This document shows, piece after piece, positions 44,729 to 63,989 of a stretch of 63,989 nucleotides of DNA. The DNA is from Sarcina sp. DSM 11001 (GTDB lineage: Bacteria; Bacillota; Clostridia; Lachnospirales; Lachnospiraceae), in the NCBI RefSeq assembly GCF_900101015.1, contig NZ_FNFZ01000025.1, positions 1 to 63,989 on the forward strand, given 5' to 3'. The translations under genes and the position numbers were made by a program. The notes below the pieces were generated by a model. It searched no databases, was not told where the DNA came from, and saw nothing but the letters and a program-made list of their open reading frames with translations. The number at the start of each line of letters is the position of its first letter. The first letter of the stretch is position 1.

Positions 44729-44825
44729 CAAGCAGGCTGATCAGCCGATCAGGCCTCCCTTCTCCGGCTGTATTGCCGACGGCAAGGTGTGGGGCGCGGC
44801 TCGGTCGATACGGAGGATTGTATCG

Positions 44826-46124
44826 ATGAACTCTCCTGCCAAAGCAGACGTGGACAGGGTTCCGGAAAGGAGCAAAATGCTTTCAGGTATTTCATTTAAA
44901 AAGACGCCGGCATTTCTGTTGATCATGATGACGGCGCTTTGTGTTTTTTTCGGGCTGATGATTATTTTTTCCGGTCAGACGGATGCTTATGCGGCGGGCA
45001 GCTCCAGGATCGATGCAGAGACCGATTCAAGTGTTGATCAGGCAGACGGATCAGCCATCACCCCTCACAATGCCACGGCTCATCAGATGAGGGGCATATG
45101 GCTTTGCTTTGAAGATTATCCTGCGCTGGGGCTGTCTCTGTCTGTCGATGAGGCGGCCTATCGATCTAATGCGGACAGGTTTCTGACGGAAGCGCAGACC
45201 TTCGGAATCAATACTGTGTTCTTACATGCCAGGGCTTCTGACGATGCCTTCTGGCGGAGCGGGTCCTTCCATGCCTCCAAATATGTGGGAGGGGATGAAA
45301 CCTTACCGGCTGCGGTGGCTTATGATAAATTTGATCCCTTCGGAGTATTTTTAGAGGAGGCGCACAGGTACGGTATTGCGGTCCATGCCTGGCTGAACCC
45401 CTACCGTATCTCTACGGATTATTACCTGGATCCCGGAGATGATGCAAGCACAGAGAGAGTGCTCACTGCAGTGAAGGAACTGCTGGCTTATGAGAGCAAT
45501 GGAGAAAAAGTGGACGGCATCCATTTAGATGATTATTTTTATAATGCCGAAGTTGGATATATCCGGCTTGGACAACCCTCTGACATTTATGTCATCACAG
45601 ATTCAGAAGCAGCTGTGCCGGAGACCGGGAAATACGCTGTCGTGACGCCCGCCGAAAAGAGGGAAAATGTCAACAAAATGGTAAAGGAACTCTGCCGGGT
45701 CGTCCATGAAGCCGGCAGGACCTTCGGAATCAGCCCCGGCGGAAATTATGATAACGATATGAACGACGGCGCGGATATCGATACCTGGCTCTCAGAGGAA
45801 GGGTACATCGACTACATCGTCCCTCAGATCTACTGGTCCAACCAGTATGGAGAGGATGGTGACACGACAATGTACACGGACCGCCTGAATCTCTTCCTTG
45901 AAAAAAGAAAAAACAAGGCTGATTTCTACGTGGGGCTGGCCCTGTATAAGACTGAGGAAGGACGGGCTGCCGGCGATCCCGGATGGAAGATGAAGAGCAC
46001 AAACCTGGCTGAACAGATCGCCGAGTTTGAGAGCAGGGACGCTGACGGATATGTACTGTTTTCCGCCAGATACCTCTTCGAAAGCTGTGCCGCACAGGAA
46101 CTGTTCAATATCAGGGATCATTAG
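44826..46124 (+). CDS. Glycoside hydrolase-like GHL10 (DUF187/YngK-type) secreted protein
   Basis: A 432-aa protein with an N-terminal signal/anchor helix (about 25-47, then TDAYAAG) and a TIM-barrel GHL10 domain (MRGIWLCFEDY; FGINTVFLHARASDDAFWRS; HAWLNPYRIS; DGIHLDDYFY; FGISPGGNYDND; YIVPQIYWSN). Relatives are thought to cleave peptidoglycan or other envelope glycans; the likely acid residues lie in HLDDYFY. GGAGG before ATG 44826 sets the start, 13 codons inside the longer frame. A decayed, internally deleted copy of this gene lies at 51231-51541. Confidence 0.87.
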   Translation: MNSPAKADVDRVPERSKMLSGISFKKTPAFLLIMMTALCVFFGLMIIFSGQTDAYAAGSSRIDAETDSSVDQADGSAITPHNATAHQMRGIWLCFEDYPALGLSLSVDEAAYRSNADRFLTEAQTFGINTVFLHARASDDAFWRSGSFHASKYVGGDETLPAAVAYDKFDPFGVFLEEAHRYGIAVHAWLNPYRISTDYYLDPGDDASTERVLTAVKELLAYESNGEKVDGIHLDDYFYNAEVGYIRLGQPSDIYVITDSEAAVPETGKYAVVTPAEKRENVNKMVKELCRVVHEAGRTFGISPGGNYDNDMNDGADIDTWLSEEGYIDYIVPQIYWSNQYGEDGDTTMYTDRLNLFLEKRKNKADFYVGLALYKTEEGRAAGDPGWKMKSTNLAEQIAEFESRDADGYVLFSARYLFESCAAQELFNIRDH

Positions 46125-50066: not shown

Positions 50067-50220
50067 GCACCAGCCCCCGAAGCCATAAATGAAAAACAGC
50101 AGAAAAATATTAACCCAATATTCCGTAACAGATTCCTCTCTTTCTAAAGTTTTTTATATGTACCATTATACCGTTAAGATAAATACGAAACCAGTTCATA
50201 TCCTGTTTTTTATCAGTACG

Positions 50221-50383
50221 GCATTTTGTTGCTGCAGTACACGCCCTATCGAGGGCGTGTACTGCAGCTTACGAAAATCCCATTCCAAATCGCTTCGCGA
50301 TGGGATTTTCGCCGTAAAACTCGGGTTTTTCGCGAAAAAGCCGCGAAAAACGCCTCGAGTTTCGAGGGAGTCTATACTGTAAC
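50221..50383. repeat. Dispersed hairpin element, copy 3
   Basis: Three consecutive hairpins: a 17-bp perfect stem (50231-50247 / 50252-50268), an 11-bp perfect stem (50273-50283 / 50300-50310) and the conserved nested stem AAACTCG / CGAGTTT (50317-50323, 50356-50362) around GTTTTTCGCG / CGCGAAAAAC. It ends TATACTGTAAC. The 3' module is almost identical to copy 2 (29176-29367); the 5' hairpin differs in sequence but keeps pairing. It fills most of the 520-bp spacer between the CmpB-like gene and ogt. Confidence 0.8.
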
Positions 50384-50446
50384 ATTTTGTTACAAGATAA
50401 AGAATCTTATTAAATATAAGTTTTGTCAAGATGAGTGTCAAGGCAT

Positions 50447-51123: not shown

Positions 51124-51230
51124 GTATGGTTGCTGAGTTGAATGGACCGGGGGACAATGGACCAGAACAATGAACCATGCCAAAGTTCCCGGATTCATTG
51201 CGGCTGTTTATGATCTCTTACGCTAAAGGA

Positions 51231-51541
51231 GACGCAGACAGGGTTCCGGAAAGGAGCAAATATGCTTTCGGGTAATTCATCAAAAGAGACGCCGGCATTT
51301 CTGTTGATCATGACGGCGGCGCTTTGTATTTTTTCGGGCTGATGGTTATTTTGGCGAGATCCATTTAGATGATTATTTTTACAATACCGGCGATCCCGGG
51401 TAGAGATTGAAAAGCACTAATCTGGCAGACCAGATCGCCGAGCTGGAGAGCAAGGGCGCTGACGGATATGTACTGTTTTGCGCCAAATACCTCTTCGAAA
51501 GCTGCGCCGCGCAGGAACTTTCCAATATCAGGGGCCATTAG
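51231..51541 (+). pseudogene. Internally deleted relic of the GHL10-type gene
   Basis: Three pieces of the gene at 44826-46124 are joined in order: 51231-51352 matches about 44847-44970 (signal region); 51358-51386 matches about 45518-45546 (the catalytic HLDDYFY region); 51386-51541 matches about 45970-46125 (C-terminus with stop). About 990 bp are missing and stop codons interrupt the frame. One junction lies at a short shared word (GCCG), as in small-homology deletion. Resemblance continues about 60 bp past the stop (CCTCTTGTCCGAAGTTCT), so the duplicated block included flanking DNA. This explains the gap between ogt and the next gene. Confidence 0.9.
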
Positions 51542-51619: not shown

Positions 51620-52726
51620 TCAGTCAATGGGAATTTCGGGCAGAAGGATCCCTTCGCCAAAATCGGGGAGCGTCAGATCCGGCTGTTCAGTTTTCTCATC
51701 GTCCTGATGGGCAGGAACATTTGATTGGTCGTCACCGGGCTCCACCGGAACCTCCTGGTCAACAGGACGTTCACCGTTATCGTTTCCGACTGAGACTGCT
51801 TCGTTTCCGCTCCCGCTGCCGGCAGGGGCAGCAGATTCATTCCCGGTCCCCTTATTTGTTCCCGCATTGGAGCCTCCTGCATTGGAACCGGAATCCCGGC
51901 CAGTTCCGTTACCAGCATTTGGTCCTCCCGCATTGGAACCGGAAACCTGCTTCCTGCCGGAGCCGGAACCATTATTCGTTCCAGATTCTTTATCCGTACC
52001 GGTTCCGGAGCCTTTATCCGCACCGGTTCCAGAGCCCTTTTCCGTGCCGGTTCCAGAGCTTTTACCTGTGCCGGTTCCACTGTCGGAGCCGGAACCGCTG
52101 TTTGTGCCTGACCCCTTGTCCTTTCCGGTATTTGTGCCGGAATCCGCATCACTGTCAGTTCCGGAATCCGTGCTCGTTTTTCTGCCGCTGCCGCCCTCAA
52201 AACCAGTGCCTTCATTCAGATCCGACCCGGTACCTGGCTGTGAACCTGCATCGGGGTCCGCGTCAGTCTCAGTCCCGCTGGCAGTGCCGGAGCCGGAGGA
52301 ATCTGATTTTTTGCTGTTACCGGCATTTGTCCCACCGGTCCTCTCCGTTTCCGTTCCGCTGAAGGGATCTTTACTGGAACCGGGAACATTATTGGAATCA
52401 TTACCGGCACTGTCTCCTGATCCTGTATCAGGATTGGAACCGGCGTCTGTATTCTCATCGGTATTCGCATTAGCGTTTGCGCTCGCTTCATCATCGGGGG
52501 ACACAGAGGACTCCGGTCCGATTTCCACTGCCTGTGTTTCCGCCCAGTTGTCTCTATTCCCGAATTCGGAGTCACCAGCGGTACTCTGCTCTTCTGTTTT
52601 TGCTGGTTCAGAGGAAGATAATCCCGTCCCGGTGTCAGGATGATGAAGAAATACAAATACCAGCAGGATTGCCAGGAGGGTCACGACAACTATGATGACT
52701 GCAGCCAGGGTTCTTCTATTCTTCAT
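51620..52726 (-). CDS. Membrane-anchored Gly/Ser/Thr/Asn-rich low-complexity protein
   Basis: A 368-aa protein: a short basic N-terminus, one transmembrane helix (about 8-27) and an outside part of about 340 residues, mostly Gly, Ser, Thr, Asn and Asp with repeated GSGTGTDK / GSNAGG units (coding repeats around 51880-52140). The last 25 residues (LTLPDFGEGILLPEIPID) are not low-complexity and may be a binding tail. No LPxTG. The gene starts 95 bp after the second precursor peptide of the RiPP locus on the same strand and could be co-transcribed, but a link in function is speculative. Alternative frames through the same DNA are by-products of the repeat. Confidence 0.65.
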   Translation of the reverse strand: MKNRRTLAAVIIVVVTLLAILLVFVFLHHPDTGTGLSSSEPAKTEEQSTAGDSEFGNRDNWAETQAVEIGPESSVSPDDEASANANANTDENTDAGSNPDTGSGDSAGNDSNNVPGSSKDPFSGTETERTGGTNAGNSKKSDSSGSGTASGTETDADPDAGSQPGTGSDLNEGTGFEGGSGRKTSTDSGTDSDADSGTNTGKDKGSGTNSGSGSDSGTGTGKSSGTGTEKGSGTGADKGSGTGTDKESGTNNGSGSGRKQVSGSNAGGPNAGNGTGRDSGSNAGGSNAGTNKGTGNESAAPAGSGSGNEAVSVGNDNGERPVDQEVPVEPGDDQSNVPAHQDDEKTEQPDLTLPDFGEGILLPEIPID

Positions 52727-52820: not shown

Positions 52821-52943
52821 TCAAGAAATGACTATCTCCGGCGTTTCAACTGTTTCAATCCCAGAAGAACAGTATGGGCTGGCGCTGACTACTTCTGATT
52901 CGAACTCAACTATTTCTATCCAGGGGGTTTCATACTTTTCCAT
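52821..52943 (-). CDS. RiPP precursor peptide 2
   Basis: A 40-aa peptide read directly from the minus strand: MEKYETPWIEIVEFESE, then VVSASPYCSSGIETVETPEI and VIS. GGAG lies six bases before ATG 52943; a start four codons earlier has no site. The first 17 residues match precursor 1 (MEKYExPxxEIVEFxSE), and both have their only Cys at residue 25. Conserved leader plus variable core is the hallmark of ribosomally made, modified peptides. It lies 58 bp downstream of the radical SAM gene. The modification (a thioether from Cys25 is likely) is inference. Confidence 0.75.
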   Translation of the reverse strand: MEKYETPWIEIVEFESEVVSASPYCSSGIETVETPEIVIS

Positions 52944-53001
52944 ATTTTTCTCCATTGGTTGTTATTTGTTGTTCTCTCTAATGTTATCTGGTCTTAAAAT
53001 G

Positions 53002-54351
53002 TTATCCGGTCTTAAGCGGTTGACATGCTGATTCAACTTGTTCTTTCACCATTTGCCTGAGTATATAAATATTGCTTTCTGTTCTTGTTATTTTACAATA
53101 ATCATTCCGGTTTGGGCATCTGGAAAAAGGTGTACATTCAGGTAAAATGGGACAATCCCTGCATTTTTCCCTGACATCTCCCACTTCTATAAAGCTGCGT
53201 AAGATATCAGGTCTTGTTGTCCCCCGGAAAATATCCCCGTGAGAAGTTCCGGGTTCACAGTGTAAACAAGTGTATAGCTCACCTCCCGGCGCAATAACAG
53301 CATACCCGGATGGTTGATCAGCCATACAATTATTGACCCGGAAAGATTTTAAAGACGATGTGGTAACATTTCTGAAGCCTGCTCGTTCTATCAACGTTCT
53401 GGATTCAATTATCCTGTTCCAATATGAAAGGAAAGCCGGGCTTTCTCTAAAGGCATGTAAAGGAGCAAAATAAATGAGGATCTTGCTTTTTTCCTTGATC
53501 ACGTTTCCCAAATCGGAAAGGAAATCCGGAATCCGTTCTATGTTCCCTTCATCTACATTACACCGGATTCCGACAGCTACTCCACGGCAAGCGAGTTTTT
53601 CGGCATTCTTCATAACATTCCAATAGGTGTTTTCATATTGGTAATATTTTTTTCTGGCAATATAATCCTCTTCCGCACAGTCCATTGAGACCTGGACCTC
53701 TTCTATATGCCAGTCCTCAATCATCTTACTGACTAACTCATCATTGATCAGGCTTCCATTTGTCACAATTGATGATTTAAACTCTATCCCGTTTTCAGCC
53801 ATCGCCATACAGATAGTGTCAATCACATCTGTACGTAAAAGAGGTTCGCCGCCGAACCAGGAAAAATGAATCCGGGTATTCTTTCTTCTGGTCTCCAGAA
53901 TATATTCTATGGTCCGGTCCACGGTCTCCATGGTCATGGATCTCCGCGGTCGGTTCTTTTCATAGCAATAAACACATCGCGCATTACATCCAAGTGTCGG
54001 CAGGATCATATACCCCGCAAACCCCTTTTTTTTCGCAATAGTTCTCATGAGCTGGTAAATGCTTATGTAGAAAACAACCTCATCCTTTTGTTCAGGTACA
54101 AGAAAATAATCCTCTGCCAGTTTATACAGCTCAGAATCCCCTATGATTCGGGTAAAAGAAAAACTGGAATCCTTGCTCAAAGTGCAGTCTGTCAACAGAC
54201 ACTGTCTGGTCATAGTGTTATATAAGCAGGTCTTCCCATATAATTCAAATGTCAGAACAAATTGAGACAGTCTGTACTGATCAACGGAATTCAACTTCTG
54301 TTTTTTGAGCACTGACCTTATTTTCTCGTCCTGCCCCCATATCTCCTTCAT
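53002..54351 (-). CDS. Radical SAM/SPASM peptide maturase
   Basis: A 449-aa enzyme. An N-terminal ~110 residues may be a peptide-recognition region. The radical SAM core carries CNARCVYC (Cys 122, 126, 129), SWFGGEPLL and the IVTNGSLIND strand. The SPASM end (about 340-430) has many Cys: NNCMAD, YTCLHCEPG, KCRDCPILPEC, RCPNRNDYC, enough for two auxiliary Fe-S clusters. Such proteins install thioether, C-C or related cross-links in short peptides. Precursor genes on both sides make this the maturase of the locus. The ATG has GAGG 11 bases upstream. No peptidase or exporter is in the window. Confidence 0.88.
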   Translation of the reverse strand: MKEIWGQDEKIRSVLKKQKLNSVDQYRLSQFVLTFELYGKTCLYNTMTRQCLLTDCTLSKDSSFSFTRIIGDSELYKLAEDYFLVPEQKDEVVFYISIYQLMRTIAKKKGFAGYMILPTLGCNARCVYCYEKNRPRRSMTMETVDRTIEYILETRRKNTRIHFSWFGGEPLLRTDVIDTICMAMAENGIEFKSSIVTNGSLINDELVSKMIEDWHIEEVQVSMDCAEEDYIARKKYYQYENTYWNVMKNAEKLACRGVAVGIRCNVDEGNIERIPDFLSDLGNVIKEKSKILIYFAPLHAFRESPAFLSYWNRIIESRTLIERAGFRNVTTSSLKSFRVNNCMADQPSGYAVIAPGGELYTCLHCEPGTSHGDIFRGTTRPDILRSFIEVGDVREKCRDCPILPECTPFSRCPNRNDYCKITRTESNIYILRQMVKEQVESACQPLKTG

Positions 54352-54392
54352 GGATTGATTATCCTCTATATCTTTTTATATTTTATATTGTT

Positions 54393-54441
54393 TGAGGCGG
54401 TGCTCCGGTTTTGTTATCAGGTATCAAGGAGCACCGCCTCA
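54393..54441 (-). terminator. Stem-loop between precursor 1 and the maturase gene
   Basis: A 14-bp perfect stem (54393-54406 / 54428-54441) with a 21-nt loop. No T-run follows leftward, so partial termination or stabilisation of the peptide message is more likely than full termination. Such a hairpin lets the peptide be made in excess over its enzyme. Confidence 0.6.
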
Positions 54442-54534
54442 TAAAATAATAATCTTCTCATAAATTAATGCAATGATGGCAACTAAGAAACCAACTGATT
54501 TCACAATAAATGCTTTATGCTATCAGTTTATAGA

Positions 54535-54660
54535 TCAGCCGCCTCCTATTGGTACTGTTTCCGTTTCTGGATCAAGTTGTCCTCCGCATACACTCGCTGT
54601 AACAGCGATTTCAGAATCAAACTCAACAATCTCCATCTCGGGCACTTCATACTTTTCCAT
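54535..54660 (-). CDS. RiPP precursor peptide 1
   Basis: A 41-aa peptide: MEKYEVPEMEIVEFDSE, then IAVTASVCGGQLDPETETVP and IGGG. AAAGGAGG lies ten bases before ATG 54660; a 25-codon longer frame would overlap this site and be unrelated in character. The leader matches precursor 2, and the single Cys25 is aligned. The core ends in Gly-Gly-Gly, while peptide 2 ends in VIS, so the two products would differ. It is first in the leftward cluster, behind its own promoter region. Confidence 0.78.
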   Translation of the reverse strand: MEKYEVPEMEIVEFDSEIAVTASVCGGQLDPETETVPIGGG

Positions 54661-54954: not shown

Positions 54955-57900
54955 TTATTTGATATAGTTAGCTGCAGCTCGATAGTAATTGAACAGAGAT
55001 GTAACAGCTTCCTTCGCTTTCTTCGAATAAGAGCCTTTGGGCGGGTTGAGGATCGTGTTGACATAGGACAGTGCGCAGACGTTTATATCAACATTCTCCT
55101 CTCCGGCTGTAACGTTTATGGTATGCATCTTATTAAGCTCATGGGCAGGTATACTGGGAATGGTCAAAAGATAATAACCATCATCCAGGGGGTCTGCCGC
55201 AATGTCTTTTCCATCCAGTTTCGCGGAGACTTCCGTTCCTTCCTCCGGCTTGACATATATGTAGATCAGCGTGCCGGACTCCAGATTCAGGGAATAGGTC
55301 AGGGCAACTTTGCTGTCGGTTCCTTTTGTCGTACTCAGAGCATAAGCTTTTACTTCCTCGCTGACACTTTGGATCATGTCGGATGTGATCTCGGAGGTCC
55401 CGGGCATTTCCTGAAAATCTGTTCCTATCGTCCAATGACGTATCCCGGACAGGTAGGGCTGTACATAGTGTCCGTAATTGCCCAGGGCTTTCAGAAGCGC
55501 CACGACATCAGGATTGTTGGCAAATATCTTCGAGCACTGGTCAATGTAATTGGATGCCTTGACGACTGTGGTTATGGTTTTTTCACCATTCTCCCCGTAA
55601 TGGTAGGTGCAGGTGATCGGCTCGGCCATCTGGATGGAATTGATGTGGCCGGTAAAACCGTAGTACTGTTTTGTGGTGTCTTTGAATGAACTGTCAAAGT
55701 CCGCTCTCTCCTCCTTTCCGTTGACCGTAAAGACCATATAGCTGTCCTCGTACTTGTCCGGTTTTCCGGGCAGATCCATGTAGACATTCACACCGATTAA
55801 ACCGGTGAGCAGCAGGGCGTAGGTCTTGAAGGTCGGTTCAGTTGACAATGTATTCGTGACATTCATGCCGTCGATCACAGTAGTATAGTTCTTGACAGCG
55901 TCTTCATAGACACTGTAAATGACCGCTTTTCCGTCATTGTTTTTGGGAAGTCCGGTAAAGCTCCATTTCCACTCTCCGTTTTCGTCCGCATTGACGGTCT
56001 CCTGCTGTCCTGTTGCCACTCCGTCAGCCAGGAGACGGATCTTGATGCTCTCAGGACGTGTATTGTTGTAGTTGTCATCATCCACCCAGGTCTTGGTTCC
56101 TTCCAAATCGACCGTCTCCGGTTCATGGGTGAAGGTGATGCGATAATAGTTTCCGGTTTCTCCTTCTGGCGTCAAAGAGGTATTGACCATGGAAACTCCA
56201 TAGGTCCCCGGACCGGGATTTCCGCTCAGAACATCTGTCGCTTCAGGGAAAACGTTGTAATTGATCCTGGTTCCTTCTCTGGTAATAGGAAGATCCGTGA
56301 AGGATCCCTGCCAGCTGTCGGCTTCTCTCAGGGTCAGGGTCTTGCCTGTGACGGCTGTATCACCTTCGTAAAGCTGGATGGTGACTGTCTGCGGACGGAT
56401 GCCGTCCCGGTTGCTGTCATCGTTCCATTTGAGGACTACGTCCACCTGGGTCTTACCAGGTGTGTATGTATTAGTGACATCATATCCGTCCACTTCAGCG
56501 GTATAATCGGGAACAGGATCTTCATGAATACTGTAGTTGATCTCCTTTCCTCCCGCATTTCTGGGAAGTCCGGGGAAGCTCCAACTCCACTGACCATCCC
56601 CATCCGCGCTTACTTCCGCGGCTTTGTCCGCCAGTTCTGTCCCGTCCGCCAGCAGGTGGATGGTGATGTTCCCGGGACGTTTGCCTTCAGCATTATCGTT
56701 ATCCACCCAGGTCTTCTTTCCTGCGATCGTGACTGTCTCCGGTGTATGGGTGTTTTTCAGGAACCGGCCGCCCGTTGTTCCGCTTTCAGGGTCAGCGGCC
56801 TCTGTGACCATTTCAAAAGCGTAGGTGCCCGGACCATCGGTACCGGTCAGCACTTCTGTCTTTTCTTCCGTGACGGAATAGCTGATCTCCCGTCCCTTCT
56901 CGTATTTGGGAAGCTTCGTGAAGCTCCACTTCCAGTCCTGCACTGCGGAGATCTCCGCCGTCCTTCCTTCGACCTCCTCTCCGTCTGCGAGCAGCCGGAC
57001 AATGACCTTGTCCGGACGGATGCCATCCTGATCGTCGGCATCATCCCAAGTCACCGTTCCGGTGAATCTTCGGGTCTGACGGCTGAATGTATTGGTGACA
57101 TTAAAGCCGTTGACCGATCTGTTGTAATCCGTAAGGGGCTCTTCGGAGATCGTGTATACAACTGGAACGGCGTTCCCTTCCTCGTCCTCCTTAGTTCTGG
57201 GAAGACCGGTAAACGTACATGTCCAGTTCCCGTTTTCGTCTGCATTCTGCGGAGTGAGCGTCACAGCCTTGTCTTCGAGTTCCGTACCGTCAGCATAGAG
57301 ATGGATGGTCACACTCTCAGGACGCTGGCCTTCGGCGTCGTCATTGTCCTGCCAGATGACAGAGGCTTCGATATCCTGCTTCGTGGGAGCGTAGGTATTG
57401 GTGATGTCAAGTCCGTCGATGACAGACTGGTATTCCTCTACCGGGTCCTCAGTGACGCTGTACTCGATCTCTCCGCCTGCCCGGTACCGACGTATATCTT
57501 TCAGAACCAGACTCCAGGTATTGCCTGTCCCGCGCGGGATGGTTATCCCTCCTGTTTCACCGGAAGCAGAACCGGCAGGAGTGCCGTCTGCATTGATCTC
57601 GTCTCCATTGGCAAAAAGATGAACGGTGACATTCTCCGGGCGGGCTTTGGCCGCATCGCTGTCATCCTCCCAAATCTTCCGGATCGTGAGATTCATCGTC
57701 TCAGGGGTGTAAGTATTTGTAATCGTCATGCCCGCCGCATCTCCTGAGCCGGCATTGTAGGAAGTCGTGTAGTCAGGCACGGCGTCTTCTTTGACGGAAT
57801 AAATAATCTCGCTTCCGTCTTTGTTGAACCGGGGCAGTTCTTCAAAGGTCCAGTTCCATGCCTGGTCCTGCCCGGCCGTGACTGTCCTGATCTGGTTGTT

Positions 57901-60900
57901 GACTACAATCCCGTCGGCAAGAAGGAGGAGCTTCACGCTTTCGGGGCGGTCACCTGCCGCGTTATCTTCGTCCTCCCAGGCTACTGTGCCCGAGAAAGAT
58001 GTGACGGACGTTTTGAGTGTATTGAGGACAGTCATCCCGTCGGCGCTTGTGAAATAGCCGTCGACTGGCTCCTGCTTCAGGAACCACGTGATCGGACCTC
58101 CATCCGATGCCACAGGTTTTACGTTGAACGTAAAGCTGACCTTCCAGCCGTCTGAAGCTTTTACGGTCTTTTTCATGTTCGGAAGCTTATTACCGTCTTC
58201 GTCCTTCACCGTGGTCATGTCAACGATCTCGCCGTTTGACAGGAGTGCCATCAAAGTCACCGTGACTTCTTTCGGGCGCTTCTTTTCCCGATCGTCCCCG
58301 TCCTCCCAGGTGATCTTTCCGGAAACGCCTTTCTTTCTGGGCGTATGAGTAAGTTTGACGAAGTAGCCGAGAGACTGCTCCCCTAAGATCGAGACCGCAT
58401 AGGTCGACGCCGAATCGCTGCCGTTGATGACGCTGGTCCGCACTACGTCGATCTTGTAGCTCTGTGAGTCATCCAGGTCAGCAAAGGTACCTGCCCAACC
58501 GTCGTTTTCAGTGAGCGTCATTGTTTTGCTGATGCTGCTTCCGTTCGTCAGGCGGATGCCGACGGAATCAGGCCGGATACCGTCCTGGTCATCAATGTCA
58601 TCCCAGACAATGGTCACAGCGGCCTGGGTCTTTCCGGGCGTGTATGTGTAGGTGACATTCATCCCTGAAAACGACGCGGTATAATCTTTGACCGCGTTTG
58701 CGGTGACTGTATACTTCGTCTTACTCAGTTTGCTTTTTCTATAATATTTGGGTACTTTGCTGAATGTATATTTCCAGTCGGGATTCTTGCCGACTGTCAG
58801 CTCTTTGTATTCATCCTTTACGATTTCCCCGTCTGCCAGCAGCTGGACCGTACACTCCTTAGGCCATTTATTCTCCGGGTTTTTGCCGTGGTTCCATGTG
58901 ACCTTGCCGGAGACGTTGATCTTCTTGGTCAGTTCGTCATATACAGCTACACCGATTCCGACAGCAACAATTCCTATACCGACTGCCGCCACGGCCGGGG
59001 CGATCCCGCCGAAGCCTTCTCCTGCTCCCGCACCAGCGCCGCCACCGGCGCCACCGCCGCCGCCGTCACCGCCGCCGCCATCGCCGCCGTCGCCGTCGCC
59101 GTCGCCGTCATCGCCGTCATCATCGGGATCATCGTCATCATCGGGATCATCGTCGTCATCGGGATCATCGTCATCATTATCATTTTGGTTATAGGTGTTG
59201 GTGATGGTATAGTACGTCCCATGATGCATGATCTGTGTGTTATAATGATCCAGATTACCATTCTGGGCGTGCTGTCTGATTGAATAATTGATCTGATGGC
59301 CGTCGGCATTCCTGTCCAGATTGTCAAATGTGAAATCATAGAGCGCTGAATTTGCCTGCCTGGTATCTCTCAGCTGGCCCCCGGCATAAAGCCCGATCTC
59401 CACACTCTGCGGCCTCTCAGCAATATGCTGTTCATCACCGTGCCACAGCACTATTCCGCTGATCGAAATACTCTCGGGCAAATGGGTGTAGGTGATGTTA
59501 AAGCCGTTATTGTTCTGCACTGCGGCGAACTGGTAATGGTTGACATGGTTTTCATTTTCGTTTTCCACAACAGCATAATTGATCTCCTGGCCGTTCCTCA
59601 CTGCGGGAAGCGGCTGGAACTGTCCGTTCCACTGATTGCCATCTCCCTGAAGATGAAGCACGTGCTTGTTTTCATTACCCTGATTACCGCCGTTTCCTGC
59701 TGTCAGAACCACATCAACGCTCAGAGGGCGATGATAATCCTGGTCGTTATTATCCTCCCAGTTGACCGTAACATTATGGGTAACTGTCTGAGGTGTGTGC
59801 TTCAGCGTGACAGTATAGCCATTTGCGGCATCGCCGCCGGTCTCACTGGAATAAGTAAGTTTGCCGTCCTGGCCGGTGATGACATTGTCATTCTGTACCT
59901 GAACCGAATACGGGATGTCCTGGAGCTGGGCGTCCTTTTTATTCAGATTATTGAAGCTGGCCTGGTAATTATTATTCCCGTTCAGCGCCACCGTCTGTCC
60001 GGTGTCCTGACCATTTGCCAGGAGCCTGACTGTGACGGAATCCGGCCGCAGCCCGTCCTCGTTTTCATGGTCATCCCAGTCGGTGACACTAACATTGACG
60101 GAAGTCTTTTCCGGATCATACGTGTTTTTGATCCTGAAGGTCCCCCCGTTTTCTGCATTTTCCACATCTGCCTGGAACTGATAGGAAACCTTAAACGGGG
60201 CTTCTATCGGGTTACCGTTCAAATTGACCTGGAAATCCCCTGTCTGTCCTTCTTCAATGTCATTATGGCCAAAGTCCTCTTCTATCACGCGATAATTATC
60301 ATTGACCCATCCCACGACTTCAAAAGTATTCCGCCATCCAGCGCCGTTTCCTCCCTGATTTTCCGCAGACTCTATCTTTTTCTGCTCTTCATCTTTCCAA
60401 TTTCCATTCTCAAGACGCTGCAGTGTGATGATTACGTAATCAGGATCTGTCTGAGTATTGATACCAAGACCTCCCGCATCCCATTCTTTTACGACCGTAA
60501 AGGTTCTCTTTACCATTCTTTTTGCGTTGATCACGGTCTTGCCGTTTTGATCGACTTCATAGGTGATATAATACTGCTTTCCACTAATTTCCGCCTCGCC
60601 TTCGTCATCAATCACCTGACCGCCCGCCTTTACACGGACACGGTATTTCTTGCCCTCTTCCCAGGGCACGGGGCCTGCCGGCGCTGCCCATTGGTTCTGT
60701 GCGCTCAGTTCCGCGGTGCTGTCCTGTACTTCTGACCAGTTTTCCGCTCCCGCCGGGCTTGACTGGACGATGGCCTGAACAGGGGATTGGGCTTCCCCGT
60801 CTTCCCATTTGATCTCTGTCGGAAAAACGCGTCCCTGCAGTGTTTTCGTGACCGGGAACTCGCCTGCCTGAAACTCCCCGTACGCGCCATAATTCACCTT

Positions 60901-63900
60901 GTATTGGAGATGCAGCGGCGTTCCGTCCTTTCTGGCAGACAGGACAATGATTCCGTTTTCCTCAACCACATTTCCCTGTTCATCAATTTCGCGGACTTGG
61001 TAATCGTCATCATTCCACTGCCCTTTGATTTCAAAAAACTTCCCGTCCTCAGGCTGATTCGGATCTGACTGTTTGACTTTAAACCACTCGCCGTTGTAGC
61101 GATGCTGAAGGATATAAGTTGATCGAACGGGTGTATCGCCATCTGCAAATGTCACCGGCGGCTCTTCTTTCCTGATGTTTCTGATAGAAAAAAACCTGTG
61201 CACTATTCCGCACTGTATTGTTGTCAGGTTATTCTCAATATCTGATCCGTTAATAGCATATTCAACGATATTTTCCACCCCGTTAGCATTTCTGACACAG
61301 AACTTTGCCACAATGTAACCGGTAAGCAGTTCATCTTGAAGGTCTTCTCCGTCTACAGGATTTCCCACATACGTATTTGCGTAGATATACATCCGCTCTC
61401 CGTCCTCGTCAAGCAGATCCACTAAATAGTTTCCTTCATCTCCGTCATCAGGAAGCGGGGCAAAGGCATGTGCCCAATTGTTATTGTTGTTCAATACCGC
61501 ATTTTCCTTCGGTACCCACTGTTTTTCACCTTCTACATATTCGCTGTGGAGGAGCTGAGCTGTCAGACTATCCGGCTTATATCCTGCAGGCGCCCCCAAC
61601 CAGTTAACTCTTACGGAGCACGTCCTCATTCCCAGGTTTACCCTGGTCAATGTGATTGTAGTAGTAAAGTGGCGTACACCACTGGCGTCTTGCCTCTTTG
61701 ATGTTGTCGAGGTGACTCTATAATCATAGCTGACTGGCTCTCCGTTTTTATAGCAGGTAAAATTGCCGGCAGCCTGAGAAACCGGATCTTCATAATCTTC
61801 GACCGAGTCACTGACAATAACAGTACGCCCTTCGTCGTTAATAAACGAACAGCTTATGCGCGCAATTGTATTTTTGTTCCTGGGAACCGTATTATTGTTC
61901 GTATATAAAGTGGTTTCCCAGCCGTTGTCGTTGTTCAGATTCGCTTCGCCGACAGGATCTTCGACCTGAGAATTTTTATCTACTTTACAAATCTTGACAA
62001 CATCAACCAGGACAGGTTTATGGGAAATCCCTTCCTCCTCGTCTTCCCATACCAGTCTTATCTTACAGTCAGCCCTGTCGGCACTGCCTTTGTTTGTGAT
62101 GATCGTTGTGGGATTTAAAGGGTCATAATTGAAAACACTATATTTCACGGCGTAGTTTTCCTGCTTTTCTACCCCGCCTTGCGTGACCGTAAAAGGAACA
62201 AGCGCCCCGTCGTTTTCAACAAGATTTCCGTCTTTATCCCTTTCACGGACCTCCCACCTGTCATCGGCACTTATTTCATTATTTGAAAAAGTACCTTTCC
62301 AATTGTTGGCTTCAGTGAGCTGGATCTCCTCTTTCTCGACCCATCCGCCCTGCTCTTCATCCCACAGTCTGAGGACAGCCGTAACAGGCTTTTCATGATG
62401 GATTCTGCTATCGTCACTTACATTTGCTACATCATCATTTTCCCATTTCAAATCTGCCGAGATAATCAATCTCTGCTTAAACTGATTTGAGACTATGAAC
62501 GTATCTTCCTCTTCATCAAAATCATAATCAACCTCATAGGCGTGCCATGCCGGCTGCCATCCACCAGGGTAATAATTCTCTACCTCGAAAAAACCCGTCT
62601 CTCCACTGGCTGTCAGCAGATTGTCCTTTCCGTCCCTTTCACATACACGGAATTTATCGCCGGCATTGTAAAATGCAGGTTTAAAATTCCCTGTCCATCC
62701 TCCGGCATCGTTAAGCTCCAACACCTCCAAAGTAGTCCAATCGCCGCCTCGCACTTCTTTTTTCTGCAGCTCTACCTTGACCACTGTATCCTCATGGCTG
62801 TTCTCGTCGTCGTTCTCCCAGACTTTTCGGACGGTAAACATCTTCTTCGGTTTCAGTTTATTAGTCAGAATAACACCAAATTCATTTTCAGGATCATGAT
62901 CATCGCTGACCACATAACCGGCCATCACAGTCTCCCCGTCCTTTTCTACCGGGAAGTCTCCGGAATCGCCTTCTTTCAACACTTTGTCTGCATCTTTTCC
63001 GTCCATCTCAAAGATCCAGAAGCTGTCTTTGGTATAAACAGGCGCAAATGTCCCTTTCCAGTCTCCGTTTTTTGTAAGTTCCAGCACCTCAACAGTAGTC
63101 CAGCCTTCGCCGTCCGCTTCCTGCTTCATAAGAGCAGCCCTGACGGTTGTGTTGTCATGACTATATTCGTCATCCTCCCAGACCTTCCGGACGGAATGAA
63201 CTATGCCGGAAGGTTTGTTCGTGATAATAAAGCCATTGGCATTCTGAGGATCCTGATCTATGCTGACCTCATAAAAGGCCATCACGGCTTCCCCGTCTTT
63301 TTTCACGGCAAAGGTCCCGGCGTCCCCGTCATCCAGAAGTTCATTTTCATTGTCTCCATCGAGCTCGCTGACAATAATCTCGCATCCATCCAAAGAGCTG
63401 GCAGGGGAAAAAGTCCCCTTCCAGTTCCCTGCCTCATTCAGTTCAATCGTCTCTACAACCGTCCAGTCTTCGCTGCCGCTCTCTTTCTTTTTCAGCGCTG
63501 CCCTGACCACTGTATCCTGATGGTCAAATACGACATCATCCCAGACCTTCTGCACTGTGAAGGTCCACTGTGTTTCACTTTTAGTCAGGGTGTTGGTAAT
63601 GACAATGCAGCCGGCATCATTACCGCTGTTATCCAGGCTGTAGGTTACGGAATAGGTGTTCCTGACAGATGCTCCTGCTCCTCCGTTTTCCGCATTCTCG
63701 ATATTCACGTTCAGTGCCCCGTCCTGCTCAATGGGCGCACCATCCCCGTCAAGTTCGACGATTCGGTAATTCCAGCTTCTGTTATCTGTCGTCTCCTCGA
63801 CCGGTTCAAAGCTCGCGCGCCAGCTTCCTCCCTTCACCTCCAGGGTCTGGACTTCTGTCCATTCCTGGCCTTCACCTGCCTGTTTCTGGAGCTGGGCACG

Positions 63901-63989
63901 GATGCTTTCCGGATTTTTGCCGGCCTTATTTTCAACCTCCTCCTTCCATTCCTTGCGGACAGAAAATGTCTTTTTGACCAGGGGATCAC
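54955..63989 (-). CDS. Giant Cna-B repeat surface protein (5' end outside window)
   Basis: At least 3,010 residues; the frame is open to the right edge, so start and signal lie outside. About 23 Cna-B-like repeats are visible (typical start xxxVxKxWxDxD..RPxxVxVxLLADG). Repeats nearer the N-terminus are diverged (13 before the middle); the ten after it are regular. In the middle come an Asp-rich tract (about 59110-59185), a Gly/Ala-rich tract (59012-59110) and a hydrophobic segment (about 58937-59010, AVAAVGIGIVAVGIGVAVY). The C-terminus (about 55820-54955) is a two-part domain with KYEDSYMVFTVNGKEE, VALLKALGNYGHYVQPYL and LFNYYRAAANYIK, found at the end of many clostridial extracellular proteins. 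No LPxTG is seen. It probably forms a long adhesin stalk; anchoring is unclear. Confidence 0.85.
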   Translation of the reverse strand, partial: DPLVKKTFSVRKEWKEEVENKAGKNPESIRAQLQKQAGEGQEWTEVQTLEVKGGSWRASFEPVEETTDNRSWNYRIVELDGDGAPIEQDGALNVNIENAENGGAGASVRNTYSVTYSLDNSGNDAGCIVITNTLTKSETQWTFTVQKVWDDVVFDHQDTVVRAALKKKESGSEDWTVVETIELNEAGNWKGTFSPASSLDGCEIIVSELDGDNENELLDDGDAGTFAVKKDGEAVMAFYEVSIDQDPQNANGFIITNKPSGIVHSVRKVWEDDEYSHDNTTVRAALMKQEADGEGWTTVEVLELTKNGDWKGTFAPVYTKDSFWIFEMDGKDADKVLKEGDSGDFPVEKDGETVMAGYVVSDDHDPENEFGVILTNKLKPKKMFTVRKVWENDDENSHEDTVVKVELQKKEVRGGDWTTLEVLELNDAGGWTGNFKPAFYNAGDKFRVCERDGKDNLLTASGETGFFEVENYYPGGWQPAWHAYEVDYDFDEEEDTFIVSNQFKQRLIISADLKWENDDVANVSDDSRIHHEKPVTAVLRLWDEEQGGWVEKEEIQLTEANNWKGTFSNNEISADDRWEVRERDKDGNLVENDGALVPFTVTQGGVEKQENYAVKYSVFNYDPLNPTTIITNKGSADRADCKIRLVWEDEEEGISHKPVLVDVVKICKVDKNSQVEDPVGEANLNNDNGWETTLYTNNNTVPRNKNTIARISCSFINDEGRTVIVSDSVEDYEDPVSQAAGNFTCYKNGEPVSYDYRVTSTTSKRQDASGVRHFTTTITLTRVNLGMRTCSVRVNWLGAPAGYKPDSLTAQLLHSEYVEGEKQWVPKENAVLNNNNNWAHAFAPLPDDGDEGNYLVDLLDEDGERMYIYANTYVGNPVDGEDLQDELLTGYIVAKFCVRNANGVENIVEYAINGSDIENNLTTIQCGIVHRFFSIRNIRKEEPPVTFADGDTPVRSTYILQHRYNGEWFKVKQSDPNQPEDGKFFEIKGQWNDDDYQVREIDEQGNVVEENGIIVLSARKDGTPLHLQYKVNYGAYGEFQAGEFPVTKTLQGRVFPTEIKWEDGEAQSPVQAIVQSSPAGAENWSEVQDSTAELSAQNQWAAPAGPVPWEEGKKYRVRVKAGGQVIDDEGEAEISGKQYYITYEVDQNGKTVINAKRMVKRTFTVVKEWDAGGLGINTQTDPDYVIITLQRLENGNWKDEEQKKIESAENQGGNGAGWRNTFEVVGWVNDNYRVIEEDFGHNDIEEGQTGDFQVNLNGNPIEAPFKVSYQFQADVENAENGGTFRIKNTYDPEKTSVNVSVTDWDDHENEDGLRPDSVTVRLLANGQDTGQTVALNGNNNYQASFNNLNKKDAQLQDIPYSVQVQNDNVITGQDGKLTYSSETGGDAANGYTVTLKHTPQTVTHNVTVNWEDNNDQDYHRPLSVDVVLTAGNGGNQGNENKHVLHLQGDGNQWNGQFQPLPAVRNGQEINYAVVENENENHVNHYQFAAVQNNNGFNITYTHLPESISISGIVLWHGDEQHIAERPQSVEIGLYAGGQLRDTRQANSALYDFTFDNLDRNADGHQINYSIRQHAQNGNLDHYNTQIMHHGTYYTITNTYNQNDNDDDDPDDDDDPDDDDDPDDDGDDGDGDGDGGDGGGGDGGGGGAGGGAGAGAGEGFGGIAPAVAAVGIGIVAVGIGVAVYDELTKKINVSGKVTWNHGKNPENKWPKECTVQLLADGEIVKDEYKELTVGKNPDWKYTFSKVPKYYRKSKLSKTKYTVTANAVKDYTASFSGMNVTYTYTPGKTQAAVTIVWDDIDDQDGIRPDSVGIRLTNGSSISKTMTLTENDGWAGTFADLDDSQSYKIDVVRTSVINGSDSASTYAVSILGEQSLGYFVKLTHTPRKKGVSGKITWEDGDDREKKRPKEVTVTLMALLSNGEIVDMTTVKDEDGNKLPNMKKTVKASDGWKVSFTFNVKPVASDGGPITWFLKQEPVDGYFTSADGMTVLNTLKTSVTSFSGTVAWEDEDNAAGDRPESVKLLLLADGIVVNNQIRTVTAGQDQAWNWTFEELPRFNKDGSEIIYSVKEDAVPDYTTSYNAGSGDAAGMTITNTYTPETMNLTIRKIWEDDSDAAKARPENVTVHLFANGDEINADGTPAGSASGETGGITIPRGTGNTWSLVLKDIRRYRAGGEIEYSVTEDPVEEYQSVIDGLDITNTYAPTKQDIEASVIWQDNDDAEGQRPESVTIHLYADGTELEDKAVTLTPQNADENGNWTCTFTGLPRTKEDEEGNAVPVVYTISEEPLTDYNRSVNGFNVTNTFSRQTRRFTGTVTWDDADDQDGIRPDKVIVRLLADGEEVEGRTAEISAVQDWKWSFTKLPKYEKGREISYSVTEEKTEVLTGTDGPGTYAFEMVTEAADPESGTTGGRFLKNTHTPETVTIAGKKTWVDNDNAEGKRPGNITIHLLADGTELADKAAEVSADGDGQWSWSFPGLPRNAGGKEINYSIHEDPVPDYTAEVDGYDVTNTYTPGKTQVDVVLKWNDDSNRDGIRPQTVTIQLYEGDTAVTGKTLTLREADSWQGSFTDLPITREGTRINYNVFPEATDVLSGNPGPGTYGVSMVNTSLTPEGETGNYYRITFTHEPETVDLEGTKTWVDDDNYNNTRPESIKIRLLADGVATGQQETVNADENGEWKWSFTGLPKNNDGKAVIYSVYEDAVKNYTTVIDGMNVTNTLSTEPTFKTYALLLTGLIGVNVYMDLPGKPDKYEDSYMVFTVNGKEERADFDSSFKDTTKQYYGFTGHINSIQMAEPITCTYHYGENGEKTITTVVKASNYIDQCSKIFANNPDVVALLKALGNYGHYVQPYLSGIRHWTIGTDFQEMPGTSEITSDMIQSVSEEVKAYALSTTKGTDSKVALTYSLNLESGTLIYIYVKPEEGTEVSAKLDGKDIAADPLDDGYYLLTIPSIPAHELNKMHTINVTAGEENVDINVCALSYVNTILNPPKGSYSKKAKEAVTSLFNYYRAAANYIK
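59120..59173. repeat. 18-bp coding tandem repeat (Asp-rich)
   Basis: Three 18-bp copies of TCATCGGGATCATCGTCA (one base change in the second) encode DDDDPD on the minus strand. They make up most of the Asp-rich tract of the giant Cna-B protein. Confidence 0.9.

Follow-up and report, generated by a model that had tools for sequence, protein, structure and literature searches.

The window analyzed here, a stretch of 63,989 nucleotides from Sarcina sp. DSM 11001, contains a gene for a radical SAM/SPASM protein between two tiny open reading frames, and this arrangement raises the question of whether the tiny genes encode peptides that the enzyme modifies and, if so, with the help of which other proteins. 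All three reading frames, proposed in a sequence-only reading of this DNA, were confirmed on the minus strand, in the order precursor 2 (54535-54660), enzyme (53002-54351) and precursor 1 (52821-52943). Precursor 2 is a peptide of 41 aa (MEKYEVPEMEIVEFDSEIAVTASVCGGQLDPETETVPIGGG) with the ribosome site AAAGGAGG upstream, and precursor 1 is a peptide of 40 aa (MEKYETPWIEIVEFESEVVSASPYCSSGIETVETPEIVIS) whose ATG at 52943 is preceded by GGAG, with a possible alternative ATG four codons earlier, at 52955 (44 aa). Both have a leader of the YxxP type and a single Cys, at residue 25; thus, the good ribosome sites and the lone Cys25 reported in the sequence-only reading hold for both precursors. A search of all six frames of the window for ATG reading frames that span 25-90 codons and carry KYxxP close to the start codon gave these two loci only (precursor 1 turns up with both of its starts). 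Furthermore, when six peptides were compared over leader codons 2-13, all 15 of the 15 pairs had more synonymous than nonsynonymous differences, as would be expected if the frames are translated and under selection. We consider that the two tiny genes flanking the enzyme very probably encode peptides that this enzyme modifies.

The enzyme, a protein of 449 aa, matches the Pfam Radical_SAM family (PF04055; 58.8 bits), has a CxxxCxxC motif at residues 122/126/129 and carries additional cysteines (C342, C362, C397, C400, C406, C412 and C419) that are invariant in five enzymes of the clade described below. Its best NCBIfam match is TIGR04463, which is the top family for five enzymes of the clade (95.7-147.9 bits, with 147.9 for the window enzyme), yet these scores are far below the cut-off of 525 bits. 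No cut-off was passed among the best 25 of the 74 NCBIfam models that matched the window enzyme, and likewise none was passed among the matches listed for the four other clade enzymes. The matches also include maturases that carry the names of other products (dynobactin DynA, 68.1 bits; AmcB, 50.8 bits; GrrM/OscB, 46 bits), and the models with scores above these include TIGR04463, Clo7bot, CefB and PapB, the last of which is named a ranthipeptide maturase. By profile comparison, the top-scoring relative of solved structure is 5wgg (71.5 bits), which we take to be the SCIFF maturase CteB, an enzyme that carries its own RRE. We rejected a role as an anaerobic sulfatase maturase or other non-peptide SPASM enzyme, since that match reached 47.1 bits compared to 147.9 bits for the best RiPP maturase in NCBIfam; thus, the grouping with sulfatase maturases that the sequence-only reading had named as its own counterevidence did not appear. 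With a radical SAM core, SPASM-type cysteines and a leader-core reading frame conserved across loci, the system fits among the radical SAM RiPPs.

We surveyed other genomes for this enzyme and obtained matches in 1 of 60 other genomes (relatives) at E 1e-60, in 2 of 391 others from the order at 1e-50 and in 8 of 396 others from the family at 1e-40. Among these last eight, G514 alone contributed to the clade of the window enzyme. That clade has seven members (window, G000:C49, G020, G328, G420, G514:C52 and G514:C94, where G000 is the genome of the window and C numbers are contigs) and 98/100 support in an 18-enzyme tree, in which some rows, including that of G420, are long and in which the G020 row and the two G514 rows differ in composition from the others. 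A leader-bearing short reading frame is present at six of the seven clade loci (at G514:C94 it lies 6.6 kb from the enzyme), so the leader does recur beside homologous enzymes, on which the sequence-only reading had staked its proposal. G328 has no peptide in the 17 kb around its enzyme and two elsewhere in the genome, one on C15 that carries the Cys and a Cys-less one on C7. When equal flanks of ~1.5 kb were compared, a peptide was found at 4/7 clade loci, a PqqD gene at 3/7 and either one at 6/7, compared to 0/7 in each case for distant homologs (P = 0.035, 0.096 and 0.0023), with the proviso that some of these peptides and PqqD proteins were among the rows from which the survey profiles were built. 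An ordinary Cys-rich precursor beside a TIGR04463-type enzyme may suit some of the distant homologs (L044, L045, L048 and L049, judged by eye) and was rejected for the clade. At 12 loci of relatives in viral contigs, local profiles detected no YxxP peptide or PqqD.

The genome of the window holds a single close paralog of the enzyme, on C49 (43% identical; four further matches are weak, E 4.7e-8 or worse), and two like precursors lie directly upstream of it (MEKYEKPIMEIVELNRDVILTSFC... and MEKYDEPQMEIIDIDDSVILTSGRC...). This second locus, together with the first, supports the earlier proposal that a single radical SAM/SPASM enzyme is paired with two precursors of leader-core type. Such a pair was found only at these two loci; the other clade loci with a peptide (G020, G420, G514:C52 and G514:C94) have one each, and thus two per enzyme is not general. 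Two more leader-like peptides occur on C48 and C63 (E 6e-4 and 0.015 with a profile that was built from five peptides, including four of this genome), and these have neither a core Cys nor an enzyme nearby.

The window leader, KYxxPx[M/I]EIVEF in both precursors, conforms to [Y/W]xxPx[hydrophobic], the motif by which free-standing RREs of the PqqD type recognize lasso peptides, PQQ and linear polyphosphorylated peptides (LPP) (Popov et al. 2026, PMC13381572). The leader pattern described in the sequence-only reading is indeed common to both peptides but is not specific to the locus, since the YxxP motif belongs to a wider peptide family. Within the clade, the leaders of G420 (WEDAD) and G514:C94 (YKEAA) are without the Pro. 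A PqqD-type gene is present in all five genomes with a clade enzyme: it adjoins the enzyme in G020, G328 and G514:C94, lies ~2.3 kb away in G420 and 2.6 kb away at G514:C52, and is on another contig than the window in G000, where the only PqqD protein over the Pfam cut-off is encoded on C53. The C53 protein is 71 and 72% identical to the PqqD proteins beside the enzyme in G020 and G328 and 37-38% identical to those of G514:C94 and G420, and it carries N33 and D70, at positions that contact the leader in LppB if equal numbering is assumed (PMC13381572). Among 299 genomes of the family, a peptide match was obtained in 10, a PqqD match in 35 and both in 9, compared to a chance overlap of 1.2 (hypergeometric P = 1.4e-8, or 1.1e-7 for 8/9 without G000); this test ignores kinship, assumes that both surveys covered the same 299 genomes (the totals and the listed handles agree) and uses a PqqD profile in which one row (G372) was found through its peptide. 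The exception is G623, which has a peptide without a PqqD match. We rejected an RRE fused to the enzyme, based on an hhalign comparison of the N-terminal stretch of five enzymes with six PqqD proteins (0.7%), a weak test with thin profiles and no positive control. A different radical SAM protein of this genome (G000:C42:95864-96562, L041) shows a weak resemblance to PqqD at its N terminus (16.7 bits, below cut-off) and is possibly an enzyme with a fused RRE.

On C53, the PqqD gene comes after an HprK-like gene with a P-loop (recognized by eye) and before a signal-peptidase-like gene. The kinase-like protein reached 18.4 of 200 bits against HprK_rel_A and the peptidase-like protein 27.3 of 51.85 bits against signal peptidase I, both below cut-off and both with no Pfam match, such that the names rest on these matches, on the P-loop, on likeness to genes in G384 and G372 and on gene order. 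The location of the PqqD gene on another contig beside likely kinase and peptidase genes suggests that the RRE and the protease may act in trans. The sequence-only reading had noted no transporter or protease nearby; this holds for the window, in which neither was found in the lists of reading frames or in a scan with local profiles. The PqqD-type RRE and the peptidase-like gene are on C53. An NTP_transf_5 protein is encoded on C32, in a locus that looks polysaccharide-like by eye. An exporter in trans, through which the products would presumably leave the cell, was not accepted, since this genome has no close exporter of the LPP type and the best ABC match has only 27% identity. A second HprK-like gene adjoins the Cys-less YxxP peptide on C48 (L020:4415-5606), and a surface protein with the module described below lies one gene away.

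The peptides encoded near a clade enzyme (within 8 kb) differ from their relatives by a Cys located 1-3 residues after a conserved [T/A]S, found in 8 of 8 distinct enzyme-locus peptides compared to 0 of 22 peptides elsewhere (27 peptide loci; Fisher P = 1.7e-7), although kinship between peptides makes this P value and those that follow too small. The two G328 peptides were set aside, after being seen, because the enzyme of that genome is unlinked; when they are counted among the others the contrast is 8/8 to 1/24 (P = 8.6e-7), and when the G514:C94 peptide is moved as well it is 7/7 to 2/25 (P = 1.1e-5). A looser measure, any Cys beyond residue 20, gave 8/8 to 2/21 before G505 was added. We had noticed the rule on the first peptides and recorded it at 7/7 to 0/17; thereafter it agreed for one enzyme-locus peptide (G514:C94), for the G328:C15 peptide and for five controls. 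The rule thus provides a sequence test for the expected substrates of the enzyme, including the G328 peptide that is far from its enzyme. With respect to the earlier suggestion that the enzyme modifies Cys25, the contrast of 8/8 to 0/22 supports a role for the Cys, which is the probable donor of a thioether; to judge from the sequences, a thioether from Cys25 is likely. An acidic residue follows the Cys within 7 residues in 7/8 enzyme-locus cores (the exception is G420), in cores that are acidic anyway, and we saw no conserved acceptor residue in the cores. By analogy with PapB, which joins Cys to Asp or Glu (PMC9413430), the acidic residue after the Cys might suit PapB-like chemistry. On G514:C52, where a clade enzyme and PqqD are encoded nearby, the YxxP-leader precursor (L054:4517-4663) has six Cys.

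The locus also adjoins genes for surface-type proteins, all on the minus strand. Upstream of precursor 2 is a giant Cna-B-type surface protein (54955-63987), whose open frame covers 3010 aa before the window ends and whose stop lies 294 bp upstream of precursor 2; scans of two module pieces yielded a Cna_B match at the edge of the window piece and otherwise no Pfam or NCBIfam match. Its C-terminal module of ~300 aa (about 54958-55869; 293 bits to a module profile in which the window is itself a row) is found on large secreted proteins, in eight genomes (G000, G420, G514, G372, G446, G644, G621 and G617), and recurs beside related peptides; the profile had no match among PDB sequences up to E 0.1. 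Module proteins occur at 10/27 peptide loci, a count that is partly circular because the profile consists of nine C-termini from seven peptide or enzyme loci already seen. Outside this set, the module was found at 3/20 other loci (G621, G617, with two proteins at one locus, and G372:C10) compared to 0/20 control stretches of 20 kb, which were hand-picked places and not random ones, 19 from nine other peptide-bearing genomes and one from G000 (one control had an NTP-transferase match). Seven module proteins are encoded in G000 (including G000:C48:92070-93038), two beside a peptide and five without a peptide in the stretches examined, and there is a broken remnant of the module at the C49 locus (a weak match, E 9e-4). 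In G372, G446 and G621, the genes for the peptide, the module protein and PqqD are grouped with those of the kinase and peptidase type, which ties the surface protein to the machinery. By eye, other peptides (in G623, G368, G505 and on C63) adjoin different surface-type proteins. Downstream of precursor 1, the protein encoded at 51620-52726 has a membrane anchor at its N terminus, contains low-complexity repeats and ends in GILLPEIPID; it has only sub-cut-off Pfam and NCBIfam matches, and proteins that resemble it by eye occur at G000:C48, G446, G372 and G514:C94.

We consider this locus to be a radical SAM variant of YxxP-leader RiPPs, beside a surface-protein gene and probably with its recognition protein in trans. 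Specifically, we think it likely that two ribosomal peptides are modified by one radical SAM/SPASM enzyme around the core Cys, with the aid of the PqqD RRE encoded on C53, and that the leader is removed. The free-standing RRE from C53 would bind the KYxxPx[M/I]EIVEF leader and hand both precursors to an enzyme that appears from the weak hhalign test to have no RRE of its own; the enzyme would then act on the core around the Cys that follows [T/A]S, with Cys25 most likely joined by a thioether to a nearby residue. The signal-peptidase-like protein encoded beside the RRE would then remove the leader, with a cut perhaps close to F-[E/D]-S at residues 14-16: the LPP peptidase LppS requires the RRE and cuts after F-E-T (PMC13381572), and the F-E-S and F-D-S of the window precursors at these residues suggest a similar cut. 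Moreover, the LPP kinase phosphorylates Ser 3 of the core (PMC13381572), and the HprK-type kinase from C53 may phosphorylate a core Ser.

We considered two explanations that would dispense with part of this scheme. The locus might be a self-contained ranthipeptide or sactipeptide bacteriocin system, in which the enzyme uses a leader-binding domain of its own and general proteases process a secreted pair. In favor of this are the solved relative 5wgg, several maturases of Cys peptides among the best NCBIfam models and the two precursors at both loci of this genome. We nevertheless judge it improbable, based on the YxxP type of the leader, the PqqD gene that adjoins the enzyme at three clade loci, the window free of any detected transporter or protease, and the N-terminal comparison that found no RRE in the enzyme (again, a weak test). 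Alternatively, the peptides might be substrates of the kinase and peptidase machinery only, and the enzyme might act on another target, such as the neighboring surface protein. Like peptides do occur without such an enzyme in the stretch examined at 19/27 loci (the two G328 loci are not among the 19), and PqqD is accompanied by likely kinase and peptidase genes on C53. However, this explanation leaves the Cys contrast unaccounted for, and an intact module protein is missing at 4/7 clade loci (G000:C49 has only a remnant, and none was detected at G020, G328 and G514:C52) compared to a peptide at 6/7; we therefore regard it as very unlikely.

A further alternative concerns the chemistry and lies inside the scheme that we favor, with which its probability overlaps: the enzyme might modify the peptides without forming a Cys thioether, by a C-C bond, epimerization or another radical change, in which case the Cys might act as a ligand or take part in a later reaction. 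Each window core has one Cys and the cores share no conserved acceptor, the chemistry of SPASM enzymes is diverse, and the DynA, AmcB and GrrM/OscB models match as well. In contrast, the position of the Cys is the core feature common to the eight enzyme-locus peptides, and the higher-scoring models include TIGR04463, Clo7bot, CefB and the ranthipeptide maturase PapB. Thus, we view a non-thioether product as possible but doubtful, and thioether formation stays in our preferred scheme of a trans-acting RRE and a core modified around the Cys.

This scheme combines features of several known systems, with recognition apparently like that of LPP or PQQ and chemistry presumably like that of a Cys-peptide maturase. 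LPPs (consensus YxxPxVLxHQxIxFETxxS; PMC13381572) share with the window precursors the YxxPx[hydrophobic] leader, followed here by a V-x-F-[E/D]-S stretch that resembles IxFET, and the genome has counterparts of their machinery in the PqqD-type RRE with likely HprK-type kinase and signal-peptidase-like genes on C53 and in NTP_transf_5 on C32. Unlike LPPs, the window precursors flank a gene for a radical SAM/SPASM enzyme, contain Cys in the core and lack the HQ of the consensus, are on another contig than the remaining genes and have no LPP-type exporter that we found; the main text of PMC13381572 uses the word "radical" 0 times. Because the enzyme set that clusters with an LPP precursor (SpI, RRE, HprK-like kinase, NTP transferase and MsbA-like transporter) was absent from the window in scans with local profiles, we do not class the locus as LPP. 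Ranthipeptide and sactipeptide systems (PapB, SCIFF/CteB) likewise pair a radical SAM/SPASM maturase with a short leader-core peptide and a core Cys, and the acidic residues after the Cys recall the PapB linkage (PMC9413430), but the window cores have a single Cys and a YxxP leader, and the PapB model reaches 91 bits (cut-off 340). The distance from six-Cys SCIFF precursors, already pointed out in the sequence-only reading, is evident in the one Cys per core and in a TIGR03974 score of 52.3 bits against a cut-off of 425, and we do not assign the locus to SCIFF. The PQQ system (PqqA/PqqD/PqqE) also combines a radical SAM/SPASM enzyme with a discrete PqqD, and its leader has a lasso-like RRE motif (PMC13381572); in contrast, no PqqE model was among the best 25 of 74 NCBIfam matches of the window enzyme. 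In the literature, judged by titles and the beginnings of abstracts and with few subscription journals covered, we found no radical SAM enzyme with YxxP-leader, LPP-like precursors. The locus would extend a peptide family first published in 2026 by a radical SAM branch. It also suggests how precursor loci scattered over one genome could depend on a single recognition protein, which would make loci that look incomplete understandable.

As for what such peptides do, the role of LPPs is stated as unknown (PMC13381572), and the association with surface proteins gives a concrete starting point for finding their purpose. We suggest, tentatively and as a possibility that we would not yet bet on, that YxxP-leader peptides in this bacterial family are dedicated companions of large secreted proteins, made beside them, matured by shared RRE machinery in trans and attached to or working with them at the cell surface, with the radical SAM branch making a cross-linked Cys version. 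If so, this would be a peptide-maturation system for surface structures and not an antibiotic pathway.

The region between precursor 2 and the enzyme gene contains a strong RNA hairpin on the minus strand (54386-54448) with 21-nt arms that are 90% complementary. The intergenic sequence (54352-54534) folds at -49.6 kcal/mol (z -5.61), and 0 of 200 shuffles folded equally well. There is no T-run after the hairpin on the minus strand, and no Rfam family matched at its gathering score between 51500 and 55200. The hairpin is a possible attenuator or processing site and could set the ratio of precursor to enzyme.

Two other features of the window were noted. Fragments at 51177-51541 resemble the start and the end of a 445-aa gene (44787-46124) and look by eye like a shortened, degenerate duplicate of it. 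Finally, a near-identical translated reading frame (LETRGVFRGFFAKNPSF...) occurs at 50196-50441 of the window and at L052:15138-15422 on C53, and is probably a dispersed DNA repeat.
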